Below are positions 3,817 to 25,750 of a stretch of 33,792 nt of DNA, piece by piece. Under the pieces are notes generated by a model, which saw only the letters and a program-made list of their open reading frames with translations, had not been told where the DNA came from and ran no database searches. A program made the position numbers and the translations under genes. Source of the stretch: a virus; IMG/VR virus record IMGVR_UViG_3300045999_004987, positions 1 to 33,792 of that record. The stretch is one strand, 5' to 3'. Numbering within the stretch: position 1 is the stretch's first letter; every line of letters starts with the position of its first letter.

Positions 3817-5574
3817 TTATGAATATTTAAGTGAACCGCGTTTTGGCGTGTCGATCGGTGCCACGCTTTCTTTTCCTTTCTTGGGCACGTATGGAACATT
3901 GCCCACACGCTTATCATTTTTAAGCCCATCGTTGGGCAAGAAGCGACCCTTTTCGCGCTTGCGGAAGTAGATAAGGCGAACCCACTTGTGGTGGCAGAAT
4001 GCGCCTCCCTTCCACTCGAATATGTCGTACGTGCTTTGTCCTTCGGGCGCGAATTGTCCATTAACTCCAGCATCGCTCATGCTTTCTATATCCTCATATC
4101 TGAAGACCTTACCTTGCTTGGATAGGTACACCATCTCACGGCAAAATTCTCGCGTGTCTTCAGTGAGGTTTTGCGAATAAGCGAAACGAAGTTTAAACAA
4201 TCCCGCGTCGCCCCATTTGCTTTTCTCGTCGCCGTTAGCGTACTGCCCAACTGACAATTCAAGGTTGGCGTACTTTTCCATTTGCGCGAGTTCTTCCTCA
4301 CGGGTACCCGCCTCTTCAATGCTTACCAGTTCCCACTCTTCATCGTCTACTTCCTCGGCCTTGTCAGCAAGGTAAGCAAGCCACGCCTTTCCGTCTTCAT
4401 CGCTTATGTTGTGGCTACACTTTTTTTTTTCAGCCGACATTGCAACGTTGGGCTGTGGTTGTGGTTCATCGAGTGAGATAGGTGTATTCGGAACAATGCT
4501 GATCTTACCTTTCGCATTCAAAATATCTTCGATACCTTTAATCAAAATGCGCTGATACGGCTCGATAACGTGGTTTAAGAAGATACGCAAGCCTTCAACC
4601 ATCTCTTCCTTGTTGCTTCCGAATCCACCTCCCGCATCACGTACACCAAAGAGTAGTGGTGTGGTCACCCTGTGGCCGATCATTACAAGTGATAAGGCTT
4701 GTGAAGAAAGGAATTGATATTGTTTGTCGGCATCGCTGATGGGGAACGTTGTTATCTCTGCACCCTTGCGATCCGTTTCGTTGAATGACATCAAAAATTT
4801 ACCTGCGTTTTTTGCGCCAGTAAGGTTTTTCTCCCACTTCTTTTTTATTTCAGTTTGCTGCTGTGGATCAACATCGCTACCGTTGTACAAATTCACAATG
4901 AAAGACGGCATCAACGAGTTCATAATATTATTCACATGGTAGATGCCTATCTCGCGTTCGAGTTCCACGTAGTTGATGCACGATGTGTAGTCGGGCGAAG
5001 GGTAGTACTCGTCGTCCTGTTTTGGAACGTGCAGATACACCACGCCCTTACCACCTTCCATACCTACACCATCGTAGGGGTGAATAAGTTTTACAGGGTT
5101 CTTTTTTAAGTCCTTCCAGTTCTTTGAGTAGTACACGCCAATAACCTCACCATCTTCGTCTGCTGCAAGTCGGCACGACGCGAAACCAAGGTTGTTTATT
5201 TTGGCGACGCCTGTTCTATCAAGTCGGTTTATGACTTCGAGGTACACGCCTCCGAATGTTTTAATGTCGTCGGCTATTGAATCAATTTGGTCGTTAAGGT
5301 TTGAACTGTCAATAACCGCTTGAACAGATGGATCGTCGGAGGCAAATCCCTTGCCCGAGATCATTGCAACGATGGAACGAATGAGTACGCCGTGAACGGG
5401 CGCACTGTTCTTTAGTTCTTGCAAGTACTTAGGGTACATATTATCGTCGCCGTAATTTATCCACCCCTTTTTATCCAGCTTGGTAGCTGGCGATACGGGT
5501 TGATACACGGCAAGTTCAATGCTCTGTACTTGCGGTTGCTTATTGGGTTGCTTATTTGGGGTATTTTCAGCCAT
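3817..5574 (-). CDS. Portal protein with C-terminal CHH-W domain
   Basis: Residues 1 to about 370 look like a phage portal: an N-terminal region with WINYGDDNMYP, a mixed core with GVLIRSIVAMISGKGF, and a helical part (FGVRDAGGGFGSNKEEM) followed by the long helix that lines the DNA channel. Residues about 390-585 form a second domain with an acidic linker, then YSQNLTEDTREFCREM and CHHKWVRLIYFRKR. In Bacteroidota prophages I associate this second domain with the C-terminus of XkdF-type protease proteins, so here it seems fused to the portal. The gene overlaps the upstream gene by 8 bases. Confidence 0.85.
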   Translation of the reverse strand: MAENTPNKQPNKQPQVQSIELAVYQPVSPATKLDKKGWINYGDDNMYPKYLQELKNSAPVHGVLIRSIVAMISGKGFASDDPSVQAVIDSSNLNDQIDSIADDIKTFGGVYLEVINRLDRTGVAKINNLGFASCRLAADEDGEVIGVYYSKNWKDLKKNPVKLIHPYDGVGMEGGKGVVYLHVPKQDDEYYPSPDYTSCINYVELEREIGIYHVNNIMNSLMPSFIVNLYNGSDVDPQQQTEIKKKWEKNLTGAKNAGKFLMSFNETDRKGAEITTFPISDADKQYQFLSSQALSLVMIGHRVTTPLLFGVRDAGGGFGSNKEEMVEGLRIFLNHVIEPYQRILIKGIEDILNAKGKISIVPNTPISLDEPQPQPNVAMSAEKKKCSHNISDEDGKAWLAYLADKAEEVDDEEWELVSIEEAGTREEELAQMEKYANLELSVGQYANGDEKSKWGDAGLFKLRFAYSQNLTEDTREFCREMVYLSKQGKVFRYEDIESMSDAGVNGQFAPEGQSTYDIFEWKGGAFCHHKWVRLIYFRKREKGRFLPNDGLKNDKRVGNVPYVPKKGKESVAPIDTPKRGSLKYS

Positions 5575-14299: not shown

Positions 14300-14479
14300 A
14301 TGAATCACAGAGATAACCTTGAACTATTGTTCCAATACTCCAAGATGGGGGTGAAGTCAAAACACGATCACGCCATACGCGGATGGAGGCGCACGATGCT
14401 TAAGGTATCGTCGGTTGTGTGGCGGCTTGTGCTTATGGTAATCGGTGCGTATCTTTCTATTTTACTTTATGGCAACTAA
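14300..14479 (+). CDS. Small membrane protein, 59 aa
   Basis: The product has a charged N-terminal half (HRDNLELLFQYSKMGVKSKH) and one hydrophobic helix at about residues 38-56 (VVWRLVLMVIGAYLSILL). It overlaps the tape measure gene by 11 bp, so the two are probably coupled. Function unknown; a small protein in front of the tape measure might have a role in tail assembly or membrane interaction. Confidence 0.6.
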   Translation: MNHRDNLELLFQYSKMGVKSKHDHAIRGWRRTMLKVSSVVWRLVLMVIGAYLSILLYGN

Positions 14480-16388
14480 GTATGTAATTCAGTTAGACGT
14501 AAACGCACAGGGAGCGATAACCAATGCCGACCAAGTGGCCGAAAAATTAAAGGCCGCTGATAAAGCTGCGGGTGCTGCTGCGGGTGGTATGCTTGCTTTG
14601 CGTAAAGAACTCAAAGCAGTTGAGAGCGAGTTATCAGGTCTTGATCCAAACTCGGCAGCATTCGCTGAACTTTCGCAAAAGGCTGGTCTTATCAAAGATC
14701 AGATGAAGGACATCAAAGAGGCGGTGGGTAACCAAGCAGGGCCAGCGGTGGAAGTTTTCGGCAACAACCTAGGCAAATTAAAAGGCGACCTCGGGAACCT
14801 CGACTTTGAGGGCGCGACATCGGCCATTCGTGGTATGGGTAACGCGGTGAAAGGCTTTTCATTCAAGGACTTGATCGGTGGTATCAAGAATTTCGGCAGC
14901 GCACTTGCGAGTGTGGGCAAGGCATTACTTACCAACCCTATCTTTTTAATCGCCGCCGCTGTTGCCGCTGCTGCACTTGCCATTAACGCAGCGTTTGAAA
15001 GCATACAGGCTGAGCAACAAAAGACGATCGACCTTGCGTACGAGAATGCGAATGCGGAGAAAGAGAAGTTGGCCGCATTAAGTGAGGGTGAAAATACATT
15101 AAGGCTCCAAGGCAAGAGCGAAAAAGAAATACTAAAGCTGAAGATCGACCAAGCCAACGCGGCTGTTGAAGCGCAGATAACGGCTATCGAAACGCAGAAG
15201 GCAGTTTTAAAAGATCAGATCGAAACGGCTAAGCGAAACAAAGAGATTGCGAGTGGTATCATTCAATTCATCACCCTACCGATCCAAGTTATTCTAGCCA
15301 CGGTTGACAAGATCGCGGGCTTCCTTGGTAAAGAACTCAACCTACGCGACAAGCTAAACGACTTCCTTTCATCAAAAGTTTTCGATCCCGATCAGATAGC
15401 AAAGGACGGCGAAGCAAGTGTGAAAGAGAACGAGAAGACACTTGCGCAACTTAAGAACCAACGCGATGGGTTTATACTATCACAACGCGACGCTGAAAAG
15501 AAGGCGAGAGATCAGCAAATAGCGGCCAAAAAAGAACAAGAGGACGTTATTTTAACTTTAGAGAAAGACAGTTACAAGGCAAGGTTAATTGAAATTGATC
15601 GGTTTTATTCTGACTTAAGACAAAAAGCCAACGGCAACAAGGATTTGCTTGCTCAAATTTCTAAACAACAAGCGGATGAAGAGGCGGTATTAAAGGATCA
15701 GCAACTCATAAAAGAACAAAACACACAAGAGCAAATTGCGCAGATTAAATCAATCGGCATTCAATCGCAAGGCATTGTGTTATCGCAAGGGTTGCAAATG
15801 CAACAAGCTACTATTGCCGAATCTAGTGCTAACATTAAGCAATTAACTGACGAAGAAAAAGCGTATCAGTTAGAAAAAGAAGTGCAGCTGGCAAATTTAC
15901 GAGCAGACACGGTGAACAATGGCCTGTCAACAATTAGTAACCTCACCACTTTATTCGCAGGCAAAAGTGAACGCTCACAAAAAAGAGCGTTTGAAATTCA
16001 GAAGCGGGTACAGATTGCGATGGCCTTGGCCGATACATACAAGGGTGCAACTGCTGCTTATGCTTCGCAGATCATACCCGGCGATCCAACATCTGTTGTG
16101 CGTGGTGGTCTTGCTGCTGCTGCTGCTGTTGCCGCTGGTCTTGTTAACGTTGCTCAAATAAGAAAGCAACAATTCACGGGCGGTAGTGGAAGCGGTGGAG
16201 GTGGTGGCGGTAGTGCCGCTGCATCATTGGGCGGTGGTGGATCGGCCCCAAACTTCACGGTAACAAACGATAGAGAAGTAGGTGAACGACCAGATCAGCC
16301 AGCTATCAAGACTTATGTAATCGCCAGCGACGTAACGTCGAACCAAGAGGCGACTGAAAAGATTGAATCACGAACAAGAATAGGATAA
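14469..16388 (+). CDS. Tail tape measure protein
   Basis: The 639-aa product starts MATKYVIQLDVNAQGAI, is mostly long helices with Lys/Glu/Gln/Ala heptads, has a hydrophobic segment at about 157-173 (PIFLIAAAVAAAALAIN), and a Gly-rich stretch (GGSGSGGGGGGSAAA) near residue 580. These are typical for tape measure proteins, which set tail length and help DNA exit through the membrane. At about 1.5 angstrom per residue the tail would be near 95 nm. It is on the opposite strand from the other tail genes, which is unusual. It overlaps the protease gene by one base (TAATG). Confidence 0.9.
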   Translation: MATKYVIQLDVNAQGAITNADQVAEKLKAADKAAGAAAGGMLALRKELKAVESELSGLDPNSAAFAELSQKAGLIKDQMKDIKEAVGNQAGPAVEVFGNNLGKLKGDLGNLDFEGATSAIRGMGNAVKGFSFKDLIGGIKNFGSALASVGKALLTNPIFLIAAAVAAAALAINAAFESIQAEQQKTIDLAYENANAEKEKLAALSEGENTLRLQGKSEKEILKLKIDQANAAVEAQITAIETQKAVLKDQIETAKRNKEIASGIIQFITLPIQVILATVDKIAGFLGKELNLRDKLNDFLSSKVFDPDQIAKDGEASVKENEKTLAQLKNQRDGFILSQRDAEKKARDQQIAAKKEQEDVILTLEKDSYKARLIEIDRFYSDLRQKANGNKDLLAQISKQQADEEAVLKDQQLIKEQNTQEQIAQIKSIGIQSQGIVLSQGLQMQQATIAESSANIKQLTDEEKAYQLEKEVQLANLRADTVNNGLSTISNLTTLFAGKSERSQKRAFEIQKRVQIAMALADTYKGATAAYASQIIPGDPTSVVRGGLAAAAAVAAGLVNVAQIRKQQFTGGSGSGGGGGGSAAASLGGGGSAPNFTVTNDREVGERPDQPAIKTYVIASDVTSNQEATEKIESRTRIG

Positions 16389-16975
16389 TGAACAAGAAAA
16401 AGAAAGTAATCAAGTACCATGTGCAAGACGACCACATGGGTATTCAAGCGGTAAGTTTAGTAGATGAACCCGCAATCATGGTAGACTTCGTTTATTTGAG
16501 CAGCCAAAAGAAGGTAAAGCTTGCAGAGGTGAACAAAGAACGCCGCATGGTGTATGGTCCTATCCTTATTCCCGATATGCACATATTGCGGATTGACAAA
16601 GAAACAGGCGAAGAGTACTACATTACCTTTACAAGAGAATGCGTTATGCAGGCCACACACGCGATCCTTAGAAAGAACTTGCAGCATAGTCACACGGTGC
16701 AGCATTCGTTCGCTGTTGCGGGCTTAAGCATCGTTGAATTGTGGGTGAAGGAAGGCGAGAGCGATAAGAGCGTTCACCTTGGTTTTGATCTGCCTATTGG
16801 TACCGCGATGGCGGGTGTGTACATTGAGAACGAAGATGTGTTGGAAGCGGTGAAGGCGGGGGATTTGAAAGGCTTTTCTATTGAAGGTCTATTCACCGAA
16901 ACGCAAGAGCAGTTATCGCTGTCAATTACCGAAAGTCAAATTTTAACAGAACTGGAGTTGCTTCTTTCAAAATAA
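16388..16975 (+). CDS. XkdF-type prohead serine protease
   Basis: The 195-aa protein matches the XkdF family (putative phage serine protease): VSLVDEPAIMVDFVYLS near the start, RMVYGPILIPDMHILRID, the YYITFTRE block, a SHTVQHSFAVAGLSIVE region with candidate catalytic His, and GDLKGFSIEGLF near the end. Such enzymes cleave scaffold and capsid proteins in the prohead. In Bacteroidota phages the family usually sits near capsid and portal and often has an extra C-terminal domain; here that domain is missing and the gene lies after the tape measure, about 8 kb from the capsid gene. Coupled to the previous gene by a TAATG overlap. Confidence 0.88.
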   Translation: MNKKKKVIKYHVQDDHMGIQAVSLVDEPAIMVDFVYLSSQKKVKLAEVNKERRMVYGPILIPDMHILRIDKETGEEYYITFTRECVMQATHAILRKNLQHSHTVQHSFAVAGLSIVELWVKEGESDKSVHLGFDLPIGTAMAGVYIENEDVLEAVKAGDLKGFSIEGLFTETQEQLSLSITESQILTELELLLSK

Positions 16976-22098: not shown

Positions 22099-22607
22099 TG
22101 TTTTAGTTTACTTTCAATGTACGCTTGCAATGCGTTTACTATTTTTTCCTCATGTTCTGGGAGCGCGTCGTTGTACGCGTTCTCGTAATACTTCACGGCG
22201 GGTATTCCGTTCTTGCCTATGCCTCTCGCTATTGAAAAAGCTAACCCTTTTTTTCTGCTTTCGGTCTGCTTTACGATCTTGCCCTTTTCGTCGCGCACTT
22301 TAATCTTCTTATCGTTGATCCATTTGAGTATCGGCTCAACAGGCGGTTGCTTGCTGTTAGGCTTGCGTCCCTCCTCTACATAGTCGGCGTAATTTGCCGC
22401 CGCACCTTTGGCAATGAACTTAATCGTGTAGCTATCCTTGTTGCGGCGAAGCGAAAAGGTTAACGAATTTTTGAGGGTTCCCGTTGCAACTGCTCTGCGC
22501 TTCTTACCCTTAACCATGCGCGTTGCACCAAGGTTACGCTGAGCACGTTCAACCACATCGTTTCCGAAGTTCACAAGTGCATCAACTATGGCCGTGTTAT
22601 CGTTCAT
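22095..22607 (-). CDS. HK97 gp10-like head-tail or tail-completion protein
   Basis: The 170-aa basic protein has the layout of the gp10 family: an N-terminal helix (VERAQRNLGATRMVKGKKRR), ATGTLKNSLTF, and YADYVEEGRKPNSKQPPVEPILKWI, then KGLAFSIARGIGKNGIPAVKYYENAY. The YxxxVExGxxP motif is characteristic. Members act at the joint of head and tail. Coupled by ATGA to genes on both sides. Confidence 0.85.
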   Translation of the reverse strand: MNDNTAIVDALVNFGNDVVERAQRNLGATRMVKGKKRRAVATGTLKNSLTFSLRRNKDSYTIKFIAKGAAANYADYVEEGRKPNSKQPPVEPILKWINDKKIKVRDEKGKIVKQTESRKKGLAFSIARGIGKNGIPAVKYYENAYNDALPEHEEKIVNALQAYIESKLKQ

Positions 22608-23590
22608 TGTATCACCACTTTGGTTCGTTGCTCGTCTTGCTCCACCACATAAACCCCTTGTTTTAATTCGCAGTTCTCAATGGATCCCGAATACATAACC
22701 GCTCCCTCCATTGAATAAACTTTAATAGGGGAGTTACTGCCAGTGGATAGACTAAACTTATCGGTGCTTGGATTTGGATATGCGTAGAACGATTCATCTT
22801 CACTTGTAGCCATGGCACTTGGGTTGATCTTCACGAAGGTGCCGACTATCCAAATGTTGGAGTTAGGTTGCAGGGTAGTAACGTTTGAAGTAAAATCGAA
22901 TGTTTGCGGCCTTCGTGCGAAGTCGGTTAGAAAGAACTTCATGTTAGCGTCGGGCGTTGCTACCCTTTGGCCGTTATGGTAGAACGCTATTCTTATCTGC
23001 GTGTTGCTGTTTGATACAAGAACTGCATGGTAGTACAACTGCGATAAGCTAGTTACGTTTGTTTCTAAAGATATACCCATTACTCCGCCCGATTGAATGC
23101 CTTGTTTCCAGTTGCTGTTATCGGTTAAGTTACGGGCTAATTGAAGGCATTGCATTGAACTATTCCACGTTGCGGTGTAACCACTTGCACCCACCCACGA
23201 TGTGCCATTAAAGGCGATCTGTTGGCCGCTCGCTATATTGTTCGATCCACGAATTACTATCGAGGTTGAACTCACCGAAGCCCCGAATGTATGGCCTTCC
23301 ATCGCGTAGGTTTCATCTGCTCCACATACTAGACCACTAGGCGTCCATTGTGAAGGGTTCATGCCCATGCCGTCGAAATCCATATCCAAGGTGAGTTGAT
23401 TGCTCGTTGCTGTTATCGTCCCCGAAAATCCAAGTGCATCATGGTCGGGCGTTACGAAGCCCCAACCCGACGAAGCGCGACGAATTACGCCGCTGACTAT
23501 TGCTACCTCTCGATTCCAAGTAAAGATTGAATCTTGCGCGGTTAAACAAAACGTGCAGAATAAAAGGATTGAAAGTAAAATTGTTTTCAT
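22604..23590 (-). CDS. Secreted protein with type IX secretion sorting domain
   Basis: Residues 1-18 form a signal peptide (MKTILLSILLFCTFCLTA, cleavage before QDS). The mature part is beta-rich with 230 residues of unknown fold (FTWNREVAIVSGVIRR, then TFDFTSNVTTLQPNSNIWIVG). The last 60 residues (from about 269) are a type A T9SS C-terminal domain: YPNPSTDKFSL, IKVYSMEGAVMYSG, ELKQGVYVVEQ, TKVVIQ. Such domains send a protein across the outer membrane by the host T9SS and then to the surface. The gene overlaps the gp10-like gene by ATGA and follows the fiber gene by two bases, so it is co-expressed with tail genes. Nothing suggests truncation. Confidence 0.88.
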   Translation of the reverse strand: MKTILLSILLFCTFCLTAQDSIFTWNREVAIVSGVIRRASSGWGFVTPDHDALGFSGTITATSNQLTLDMDFDGMGMNPSQWTPSGLVCGADETYAMEGHTFGASVSSTSIVIRGSNNIASGQQIAFNGTSWVGASGYTATWNSSMQCLQLARNLTDNSNWKQGIQSGGVMGISLETNVTSLSQLYYHAVLVSNSNTQIRIAFYHNGQRVATPDANMKFFLTDFARRPQTFDFTSNVTTLQPNSNIWIVGTFVKINPSAMATSEDESFYAYPNPSTDKFSLSTGSNSPIKVYSMEGAVMYSGSIENCELKQGVYVVEQDEQRTKVVIQ

Positions 23591-23592
23591 AA

Positions 23593-24978
23593 TTACTGAT
23601 ATTCGATTGATATGTTATTGACTTGAATTGCATTTGTTGTTGCGCCAACTAACCGCCAACTCCATAAATCGGTTGCGCTGTACGATATGGCTCCAGTCGC
23701 AGTAAAAACACCAGTCGTTGATCCGCTCGGTATGGTTACTACTAACCCCGTATCTACTCCGTTACGGCGTAAAGTGAAGGTCGATGCGCCAACTGTTGCT
23801 GTAACTATCACTAGGTAGGCGGTTGCGCCAACCGTTGTTAACGCACGAGGCACCACTTGTTGTGGCGTACCCTCGGAAGTTGCGATAGCGTTTGATCCTT
23901 GCACCACTAAAAAACGGGTAAGCCCTGCGGCGAGTGTTCCGCCCGGCGAAGAGTTAGCAAAAAAGGTAGGCGTGAACCATTGTGTGTTAAAGTCGGTTGC
24001 GTTTATTTTTCGCAACACTTGCCCTGTCGTTCCACCCGTTGGCACGCCTTGGCCGTTTGCCCCAGTTGCGCCTGTCGGCCCTGTGTCACCGGTATCACCT
24101 TTATCTCCTTTGTCGCCCTTATCACCTTGGATTCCCTGTATTCCCTGTATGCCTTGGATGCCTTGTATTCCCTGCGTACCTTGTTCGCCTTGCGGCCCTT
24201 TGATATTACCGACAACTGTCCAAACGTTTGCGGCCTTATTGTACACATCACCGTTCGATGTGCGTAGGTAGTAGTCGCCATTATTGCCAAGTGAATTGCT
24301 CGGCACGCCCGAACCATCAAACCAAACGCTCCCACCGCCGCCACTTGTTATCGCGTGCCAACCTTTCACCCCACTTGCATTAGTGCCGTAGTACTTTGAA
24401 TTGCCAGGTGCCTCTTCATCGTTATCAAGGGTTATGGTAACACCTTCTTTGTTCAATGATTCAGCAAAAACTAAAGAGGTATTCGGATCGGTGCTATCGG
24501 GCGAGGTAACGCCAATAGTAAAGTCGGCGGGTATATCACACGCGCTCCAGTTCCAATCGAAGGATAAAGTAATATCGAGAGTAACGCCCGTTAATGTGTT
24601 CGTTCCTTCCTCGAATAGTGGGGTAATAGTCGGATCGCCTTCAAAGGCAACATCGCTGCCAAATATCGTGCGCCCGTTTTGAATCTCGGCGATCAAGTCC
24701 TCGGCGATTCTTTGCATCGCGCTTGCACTTTCCTTTTGGTATTCCGTTTTTTCGGTGCGGTCCCTCGGCAAGTCGGCAAACAAGATCGCGAAAGTCCACG
24801 TCTTCATCTTGGAAGGGTACCCGCTATTTGTCCAAAATACGTGCATCAATGGGTACACGGGTTCTTTTGGTAAGTCGGCTTGTGTTGGCTGTCCATGGCT
24901 GAATGCCTTGATCTGCAAGTGCGCGTCGGCAAATGCACGGAACCTTTCAATTATTACTTTGTATGATACGTTGGTCAT
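23593..24978 (-). CDS. Tail-completion domain fused to a collagen-like fiber
   Basis: Residues 1-155 resemble tail terminator/completion proteins of Bacteroidota phages (IIERFRAFADAHLQIKAFSHGQ, then MQRIAEDLIAEIQNG, DITLSFDWNWSACDIP). Residues 260-309 are Gly-X-Y collagen-like repeats, and 310-461 a beta-rich head ending in IQVNNISIEYQ. The fusion places a trimeric fiber on a protein of the upper tail or neck. The next gene upstream ends with an overlapping ATGA. A head or neck whisker is the most likely structure. Confidence 0.78.
   Translation of the reverse strand: MTNVSYKVIIERFRAFADAHLQIKAFSHGQPTQADLPKEPVYPLMHVFWTNSGYPSKMKTWTFAILFADLPRDRTEKTEYQKESASAMQRIAEDLIAEIQNGRTIFGSDVAFEGDPTITPLFEEGTNTLTGVTLDITLSFDWNWSACDIPADFTIGVTSPDSTDPNTSLVFAESLNKEGVTITLDNDEEAPGNSKYYGTNASGVKGWHAITSGGGGSVWFDGSGVPSNSLGNNGDYYLRTSNGDVYNKAANVWTVVGNIKGPQGEQGTQGIQGIQGIQGIQGIQGDKGDKGDKGDTGDTGPTGATGANGQGVPTGGTTGQVLRKINATDFNTQWFTPTFFANSSPGGTLAAGLTRFLVVQGSNAIATSEGTPQQVVPRALTTVGATAYLVIVTATVGASTFTLRRNGVDTGLVVTIPSGSTTGVFTATGAISYSATDLWSWRLVGATTNAIQVNNISIEYQ
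24052..24198 (-). repeat. Collagen-like Gly-X-Y repeat coding region
   Basis: Sixteen consecutive Gly-X-Y triplets (five GIQ, three GDK, two GDT and others) are encoded here. Synonymous changes keep the amino acid repeat but the DNA stays repetitive, so length changes by slippage are likely. Confidence 0.85.
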
Positions 24979-25259
24979 CGTTTCTTTTTTTGCTGTTCAA
25001 AATTCTTTCGCTGCATGTACACCATGTGTGTTAGTAGGGTGTAGTGGTTTATCTTAGTTAACTCCTCGATTCTTACCACATCGTAATTCGCTAACTGCTC
25101 CAAGGTATGCAGCCAACCGAACGCCGCTAGTCCTCCTCCATCAGTTGCGCCAGCATCTTCTCCAGTTCCTTCTTCTCCTTGGTCAACCGCACTAACAAAG
25201 AGTGCTGCGAAATGGTCGGTAGTTCGTTTGCAATGGCCGAAAAAAAAAGCAGCGCACCG
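24975..25259 (-). CDS. Tail assembly chaperone extension in the -1 frame
   Basis: The -1 frame is open from after TGA at 25262-25260 through the stop of the 25127 gene to TGA at 24975-24977, where it overlaps the next start as ATGA. The part past the first frame's stop reads FGWLHTLEQLANYDVVRIEE and LTKINHYTLLTHMVYMQ, protein-like and typical for the T part of a G/GT chaperone pair. It has no start codon of its own in a good place. The only canonical slip heptamer I see is T TTT TTT at 25247-25241, in the right frame; a slip nearer the stop by another signal is possible. Confidence 0.7.
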   Translation of the reverse strand, partial: RCAAFFFGHCKRTTDHFAALFVSAVDQGEEGTGEDAGATDGGGLAAFGWLHTLEQLANYDVVRIEELTKINHYTLLTHMVYMQRKNFEQQKKKR

Positions 25260-25750
25260 TCAACTCTATCCATAGTCATTGCCTCGATCAAGTGCAGATG
25301 CCTTACCCTCTCGTTGTCGTATGGCTCCACCTCGTACAACAACTTACCACCACCACGCATTGAATACGTAACGGGGCGAAAGAGTAAAGCCATAAGTTTA
25401 GGCAAGTCGGTATAATCGGGATTGCGTTTGTCCTTCCAAATGTTTTGCGTGTAAGACAAACCGTCGATGTATTCACCGGCGGTCATTTGGGTGAAGTCGG
25501 GAATTAAACCGATACGCCCTTGAAACCACTTTGGCCGAAATACATTATCATGCCTCCGCATTGTTTTACTAAGCACAATTTCAAACGTTTCAATGATCTT
25601 AGAAAGCGTTTCAATCGGCCACTTGTACACCACCTTTTTCTTCTCACCCGTTATCGCGCATACCTTGTCCACATCGCTCTTCGCTGTTTTGTAGGCGACG
25701 AACTGCGCAAGGGTAACGCTCGAATAAAGGGCGGGTATATTAACCTTCAT
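25127..25750 (-). CDS. Tail assembly chaperone (G-like product)
   Basis: The 207-aa product starts MKVNIPALYSSVTLAQFVAY, as do tail assembly chaperones of Bacteroidota phages, with IIPDFTQ-like middle sequence and a charged coiled coil at the end (LTKEKKELEKMLAQLMEED). It sits just before the tail genes, where this chaperone is expected, binding the tape measure during tail assembly. The 148 bp behind its stop have no independent gene but are open in the -1 frame, pointing to a frameshifted longer form. Confidence 0.78.
   Translation of the reverse strand: MKVNIPALYSSVTLAQFVAYKTAKSDVDKVCAITGEKKKVVYKWPIETLSKIIETFEIVLSKTMRRHDNVFRPKWFQGRIGLIPDFTQMTAGEYIDGLSYTQNIWKDKRNPDYTDLPKLMALLFRPVTYSMRGGGKLLYEVEPYDNERVRHLHLIEAMTMDRVDGALLFFSAIANELPTISQHSLLVRLTKEKKELEKMLAQLMEED

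Follow-up and report, generated by a model that had tools for sequence, protein, structure and literature searches.

A conserved run of nine or ten Ts as the probable -1 switch between a G-like and a T-like tail protein in phages of Bacteroidota

Organization of the G-like locus

The viral DNA analyzed here (the window, 33,792 nucleotides) carries on its minus strand a short gene whose -1 frame stays open across the stop codon of the gene. This organization raises the questions of whether the -1 frame is read as an extension of the upstream protein, at which site the frame would be changed, and whether the ribosome or RNA polymerase would change it. The following features were located in the window:

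25127..25750, minus strand: G-like protein in frame 0, the short product (207 aa); ORF from ATG 25750 to a TAG stop, matched by a profile built without the window
25127..25129, minus strand: TAG stop of the G-like protein, read from the sequence
25240..25248, minus strand: T9 run assigned as the slip site (U9 in the mRNA); 280/280 assessable homologues have T9 or T10 there
25241..25247, minus strand: in-phase heptamer T TTT TTT in the frame-0 codons CTT TTT TTT
24975..25259, minus strand: open -1 frame including its stop TGA 24977-24975, read from the sequence
24978..25247, minus strand: 90-residue stretch predicted to be read in the -1 frame once slippage has occurred (FF helix, linker and T domain), from the T profile and a structure model
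25137..25187, minus strand: Gly/Asp-rich linker in the -1 frame, a low-confidence region of the model (residues 21-37)
24978..25136, minus strand: predicted helical T domain (model residues 38-90), at the KWGWY position of relatives
24975..24978, minus strand: ATGA joint between the T stop and the next gene (ATG 24978), read from the sequence

The coordinates of the G stop, the open -1 frame, the heptamer and the ATGA joint, as given in the first-pass annotation, were all exact to the base. The last -1 frame stop upstream of the open stretch is TGA 25262-25260, and the frame-0 codons across the slip site are CTT TTT TTT TCG. The T9 at 25248-25240, about 110 nt ahead of the G stop, is the sole minus-strand T-run of at least nine in the window. 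The ATGA joint was also present in 67/115 relatives. According to the AlphaFold2 model of the G-like protein (pLDDT 90.7), its C-terminal part forms a long helix (residues 160-206). The T domain of the window is devoid of the WGWY core motif and has FGWL instead.

Relatives of the locus

Searches with single proteins revealed only one near-identical relative, L002 (98%), which carries the same T9. The portal and tube genes led to the Nonlabens phages P12024S and P12024L. On alignment, gp38 of P12024S showed 26% identity to the window G; in both phages, a T9 is located at the same Phe-Phe, and the -1 frame is open into gp39. These two proteins of P12024S, an isolated phage, correspond to PHROG 32199 and PHROG 38404, which are unannotated in function and are given as two separate genes without a frameshift. 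The window's own G and T matched neither PHROG, whereas those of relatives did, and phrog_32199 was matched by 25/26 members of the G alignment.

The family was opened by alignment with P12024S, followed by alignment- and motif-based scans of IMG/VR. One search pattern behind the first, alignment-chosen set includes the Phe-Phe site and favours certain flanking residues. To remove this bias, two further samples were collected, one by a G motif that precedes the run and one by a T motif that follows it. In total, 280 homologues could be assessed, and 154 of them were nonredundant at 80% over 200 nt. Sequences seemingly without the run or with a short run end at or near a contig edge (e.g., L277). 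The window's family is a large, unstudied group of Bacteroidota phages.

Coding capacity of the -1 frame

A T profile built from 47 relatives, with the window left out, was run against the six frames of the window. The only match covered 24978-25259 (E=3.2e-12) and placed position 1 of the model at the run. A G profile, also built without the window, matched the window G at E=2.3e-29. Since profiles made without the window match exactly these frames and the arrangement recurs in 280 homologues, it is more than a chance one.

Substitutions in 44 independent close pairs were then assigned to frames. Upstream of the run, 723/1065 were synonymous in frame 0. In the overlap, 217/446 were synonymous in the -1 frame versus 124/446 in frame 0, and downstream of it the -1 frame reached 127/177. 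In bins of 30 nt, constraint acts on both frames over roughly the first 60 nt past the run, where 40–47% of substitutions are synonymous in frame 0, and thereafter the -1 frame dominates. The passage of conservation from frame 0 to frame -1, which the first-pass annotation had named as a check of its proposal, begins at the run in these pairs. In addition, the prophage L391 carries both domains, G and T, in one single frame, and several predicted phage proteins of 240–267 aa match both the G and T structure models.

Conservation of the slip site

At the Phe-Phe site, the run comprised nine Ts in 256 and ten Ts in 24 of the 280 homologues, and no other length occurred. The alignment-chosen set had T9 throughout, except for one T10 member, and the G-motif and T-motif samples gave the same T9/T10 outcome. 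In the T-motif sample, the T frame was -1 relative to G in 105/105 sequences. Wherever the T frame is intact, the assessable sequences all keep the in-phase T TTT TTT, both in the window family and in a sister prophage family described below. A pattern scan, with a profile search as a positive control, found no members with TTC in the Phe-Phe site.

Comparison among the homologues thus establishes the two frames and the site, as well as the fact that the site is conserved and the T frame homologous. The slip site is assigned to the T-run because the T profile starts there and the run is common to all homologues. The first-pass annotation had left the exact site open between this run and a position close to GGAGGAGGA near the stop; the former part of that proposal stands, the latter does not, and on the comparative evidence we regard the site as settled. 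The proposed -1 frameshift in the G-like gene itself is borne out by the T profile match and by conservation across the 280 homologues. Whichever machine slips, a programmed -1 switch at the T-run very probably joins the G-like protein to the T-like domain.

Three other explanations of the locus were considered. The T domain might be a separately started protein, made either from a start codon of its own or through re-initiation past the G stop. In P12024S and P12024L, the annotation does treat the T domain as a separate gene, with an ATG in the T frame at a TAATG joint (L005:23663-23830 and L006:24473-24640); this ATG exists besides the T9, and a short T could also start there. However, 112/115 relatives have no ATG between the run and the T core, leaving only three with one, and in 109/115 the conserved WGW core of T precedes the G stop. 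As for the window, its possible -1 frame starts (TTG 25103, GTG 25079 and ATG 25025) are each located within the T domain, in agreement with the first-pass annotation, which saw no evident independent start, and -1 frame conservation begins at the run. A separate start is therefore judged very improbable, and in most relatives it can be considered excluded on comparative grounds. The position of the T core, which precedes the G stop in almost every relative, equally disagrees with slippage near that stop, by GGAGGAGGA, which would keep the whole G coiled coil; so do the start of the T profile at the run and the presence of the run in all sequences. In favour of such late slippage, three positions of the overlap differ between the window and its near relative. 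These substitutions, which precede the stop and fall within the linker or ahead of it, are all silent in frame 0 and alter the -1 frame. We give this possibility scarcely any weight. Finally, sequencing often miscounts homopolymers, and single-frame fusions occur among the relatives, so that the window might truly have ten Ts and a single ORF, or be a decayed gene. Against this, the same T9 is found in an independent near relative and in the finished genomes of P12024S and P12024L. Moreover, frame 0 is still constrained past the run, the offset between G and T is -1 even in T10 members, and conservation across 280 sequences contradicts an error, whose probability we consider negligible.

Proposed pathway of G and GT synthesis

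Based on the above results, we suggest that one gene gives rise to two proteins. Normal reading would yield the 207-aa G protein. At the T9, a fraction of events would slip by -1, and the -1 frame would then supply a short helix followed by a flexible linker and the helical T domain, producing a GT fusion. According to the models, GT would exchange the end of the G helix for this helix, the linker and the T domain. By analogy with lambda G/GT, many G and few GT molecules may attach to the tape-measure protein and bring in tail-tube subunits. Both this role as a chaperone and the proportion of G to GT are what we infer from that analogy.

RNA polymerase or ribosome

For ribosomal -1 sites, a heptamer X XXY YYZ is sufficient, and runs of 7–8 are tolerated; a downstream RNA structure is a common stimulator of -1 frameshifting, though not an obligatory one. 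Bacterial RNA polymerase slips efficiently from nine (PMC5009743), and a conserved run of nine Ts is a mark of programmed transcriptional slippage (PMC1088944). The run in the window family was never 7 or 8 among the 154 nonredundant sequences. It does not fall under nine even in sequences whose run has shifted in phase: L009, L113 and L228 lack the T in front of the heptamer but have two Ts behind it, and in L146, which lacks the T behind it, an extra TTT stands in front. If the flanks were independent, the probability that all runs reach nine would be P=5.6e-6, a value to be read with caution since the sequences share ancestry. Other sense-strand T9 runs in the coding sequence of the same contigs amounted to 1 in 760 kb. 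The T-run length, always kept at nine or ten, suggests that RNA polymerase, and not the ribosome alone, may be slipping.

The opposite explanation is that only the ribosome slips, by tandem tRNA-Phe slippage on U UUU UUU, and that the extra Ts are a by-product of amino-acid choices in two frames. It agrees with the in-phase T TTT TTT always being kept in both families where the T frame is intact, with the sister prophages, which use the heptamer with runs of 7 (33/56) or 8 (4/56), and with the G/GT systems covered by a review, which are ribosomal (PMC5009743). The residues beside the run in the T9 family (L, V or I before it and Y, W, S, F or L after it) account for most of the extra Ts, and dual-frame amino-acid constraints could have fixed many flanking Ts. 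It does not readily explain the lack of 7- and 8-T runs or the regaining of a T on one side when it is lost on the other. Nor was there an RNA structure signal after the run: downstream folding in 117 sequences gave mean z values of -0.08 and -0.16, pseudoknots being outside the model. We put slippage by the ribosome only at somewhat under an even chance. The insertion of one extra U by RNA polymerase, alone or together with the ribosome, is slightly favoured, at even odds or a little better, and we lean to it because selection seems to hold the run at a minimum of nine.

It should be noted that the +1 frame shuts within five codons after the run in 104/115 sequences, mostly via TTTAG, so transcripts one U short would end at once. 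This closure is less frequent in the sister prophage family.

Sister prophage family

The T profile also detected sister prophages (L385-L389 and L392-L453), which belong to one order of Bacteroidota. Like the window family, they encode G and, in the -1 frame, T, joined at the same Phe-Phe site. Unlike it, their runs vary from 7 to 10 Ts, and other residues stand beside the run. The run comprised 7 Ts in 33, 8 in 4, 9 in 16 and 10 in 3 sequences, so that 37/56 were below nine; these counts were read from the slip-site contexts, as the longest run is not always the slip site. Run lengths of 7–10 are such as ribosomal slippage by itself would permit. Because this family works with T7, nine Ts are not needed everywhere. 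It is an even bet that GT is made by RNA-polymerase slippage on T9/T10 in the window family and by ribosomal slippage on the T7 heptamer, at the same codon, in the sister prophages.

The sister element was found in 60/300 genomes of that order and may represent either a widespread prophage or a tail that has been domesticated. Some copies (L420, L450 and L451) are broken at the slip site.

Comparison with known systems

The lambda-type G/GT tail assembly chaperones were reportedly described by Xu, Hendrix and Duda in 2004. The locus resembles them in having a short G and a frame-shifted GT, with T in an overlapping -1 frame open through the slip site. An in-phase slippery heptamer in the overlap, the location in a tail gene cluster and, in most members here, the lack of an independent T start are also shared. 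In contrast, no sequence relation is detectable, and the site here is T9/T10. Lambda-type G/GT genes are located between the major tail protein and tape-measure genes. In relatives, the G-like gene does not immediately precede the tape measure but has four other genes in between, and the window carries the two on opposite strands, so the first-pass claim that the G-like gene lies exactly at the expected G/GT place did not hold. The gene order in relatives is TerL, G/T, a terminator-like gene, a gp10-like gene, two genes and the tape measure (about 4.5 kb on). G/T adjoins the terminase, and the tube gene is elsewhere.

No significant Pfam match or PDB sequence match (G and T profiles against PDB) was obtained, and all Foldseek matches in the PDB had E values of 1 or more. 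The better of two chains kept by VIA-align was HK97 gp13 (PDB 2OB9), with Z 2.6 over 76 residues and a Foldseek E of 9.4, too weak a match to indicate a shared fold. The assignment to tail assembly chaperone genes in the first-pass annotation is retained for its G/GT anatomy, which makes this role plausible, although only inferred; it gains no sequence-family match, and the fold match to the HK97 chaperone is weak. We consider that the pair works like G/GT and do not file it as a member of the lambda family. A match of phrog_7022 to the -1 frame (E 0.05) was discarded, as it also appears in unrelated control genomes.

Transcriptional slippage on 9A/9T runs is known from Thermus dnaX, Shigella mxiE and IS elements (PMC1088944). 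Similar to these genes, the run here is conserved in length (9 or 10 in 280/280), and one extra U would join both frames. In contrast to them, phage tail chaperones were without a report of transcriptional slippage in the literature searched, which was likewise without a report of this frameshift in these phages; neither absence is proof of novelty. If the slippage proposed here is transcriptional, it would give, to our knowledge, the first G/GT pair made in this way. It would also be a further example, after dnaX, of homologous genes using either level of slippage. The two families form a natural pair for asking whether RNA-polymerase slippage can take the place of ribosomal frameshifting in the control of phage tail length. 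Both genes are "hypothetical" in hundreds of phages of Bacteroidota, to which the proposed switch would give the missing tail protein GT and two named domains.

Neighbouring genes

The tape-measure gene of the window and the protease-like gene after it (14445-16975, plus strand) run opposite to G. The near relative L003 shares this inversion, while L009, L232 and L249 have both genes on the G strand. An A10 run in the portal gene (4421-4430, minus strand) was considered as a second slip site and rejected, being not conserved in 23 relatives. This run precedes a C-terminal tail, and one extra A would stop reading at once.

The gene at 22604-23590 (minus strand) encodes a 328-aa protein with a signal-peptide-like start and a tail-fibre-like match (phrog_24580). 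It also showed a near-threshold match to the Por secretion tail PF18962 (25.1 bits against a cut-off of 27), which would give this phage protein a type IX secretion-like tail. The gene at 23593-24978 (minus strand) encodes an N-terminal domain in the terminator position fused to collagen repeats; at that position, relatives carry just a short protein.
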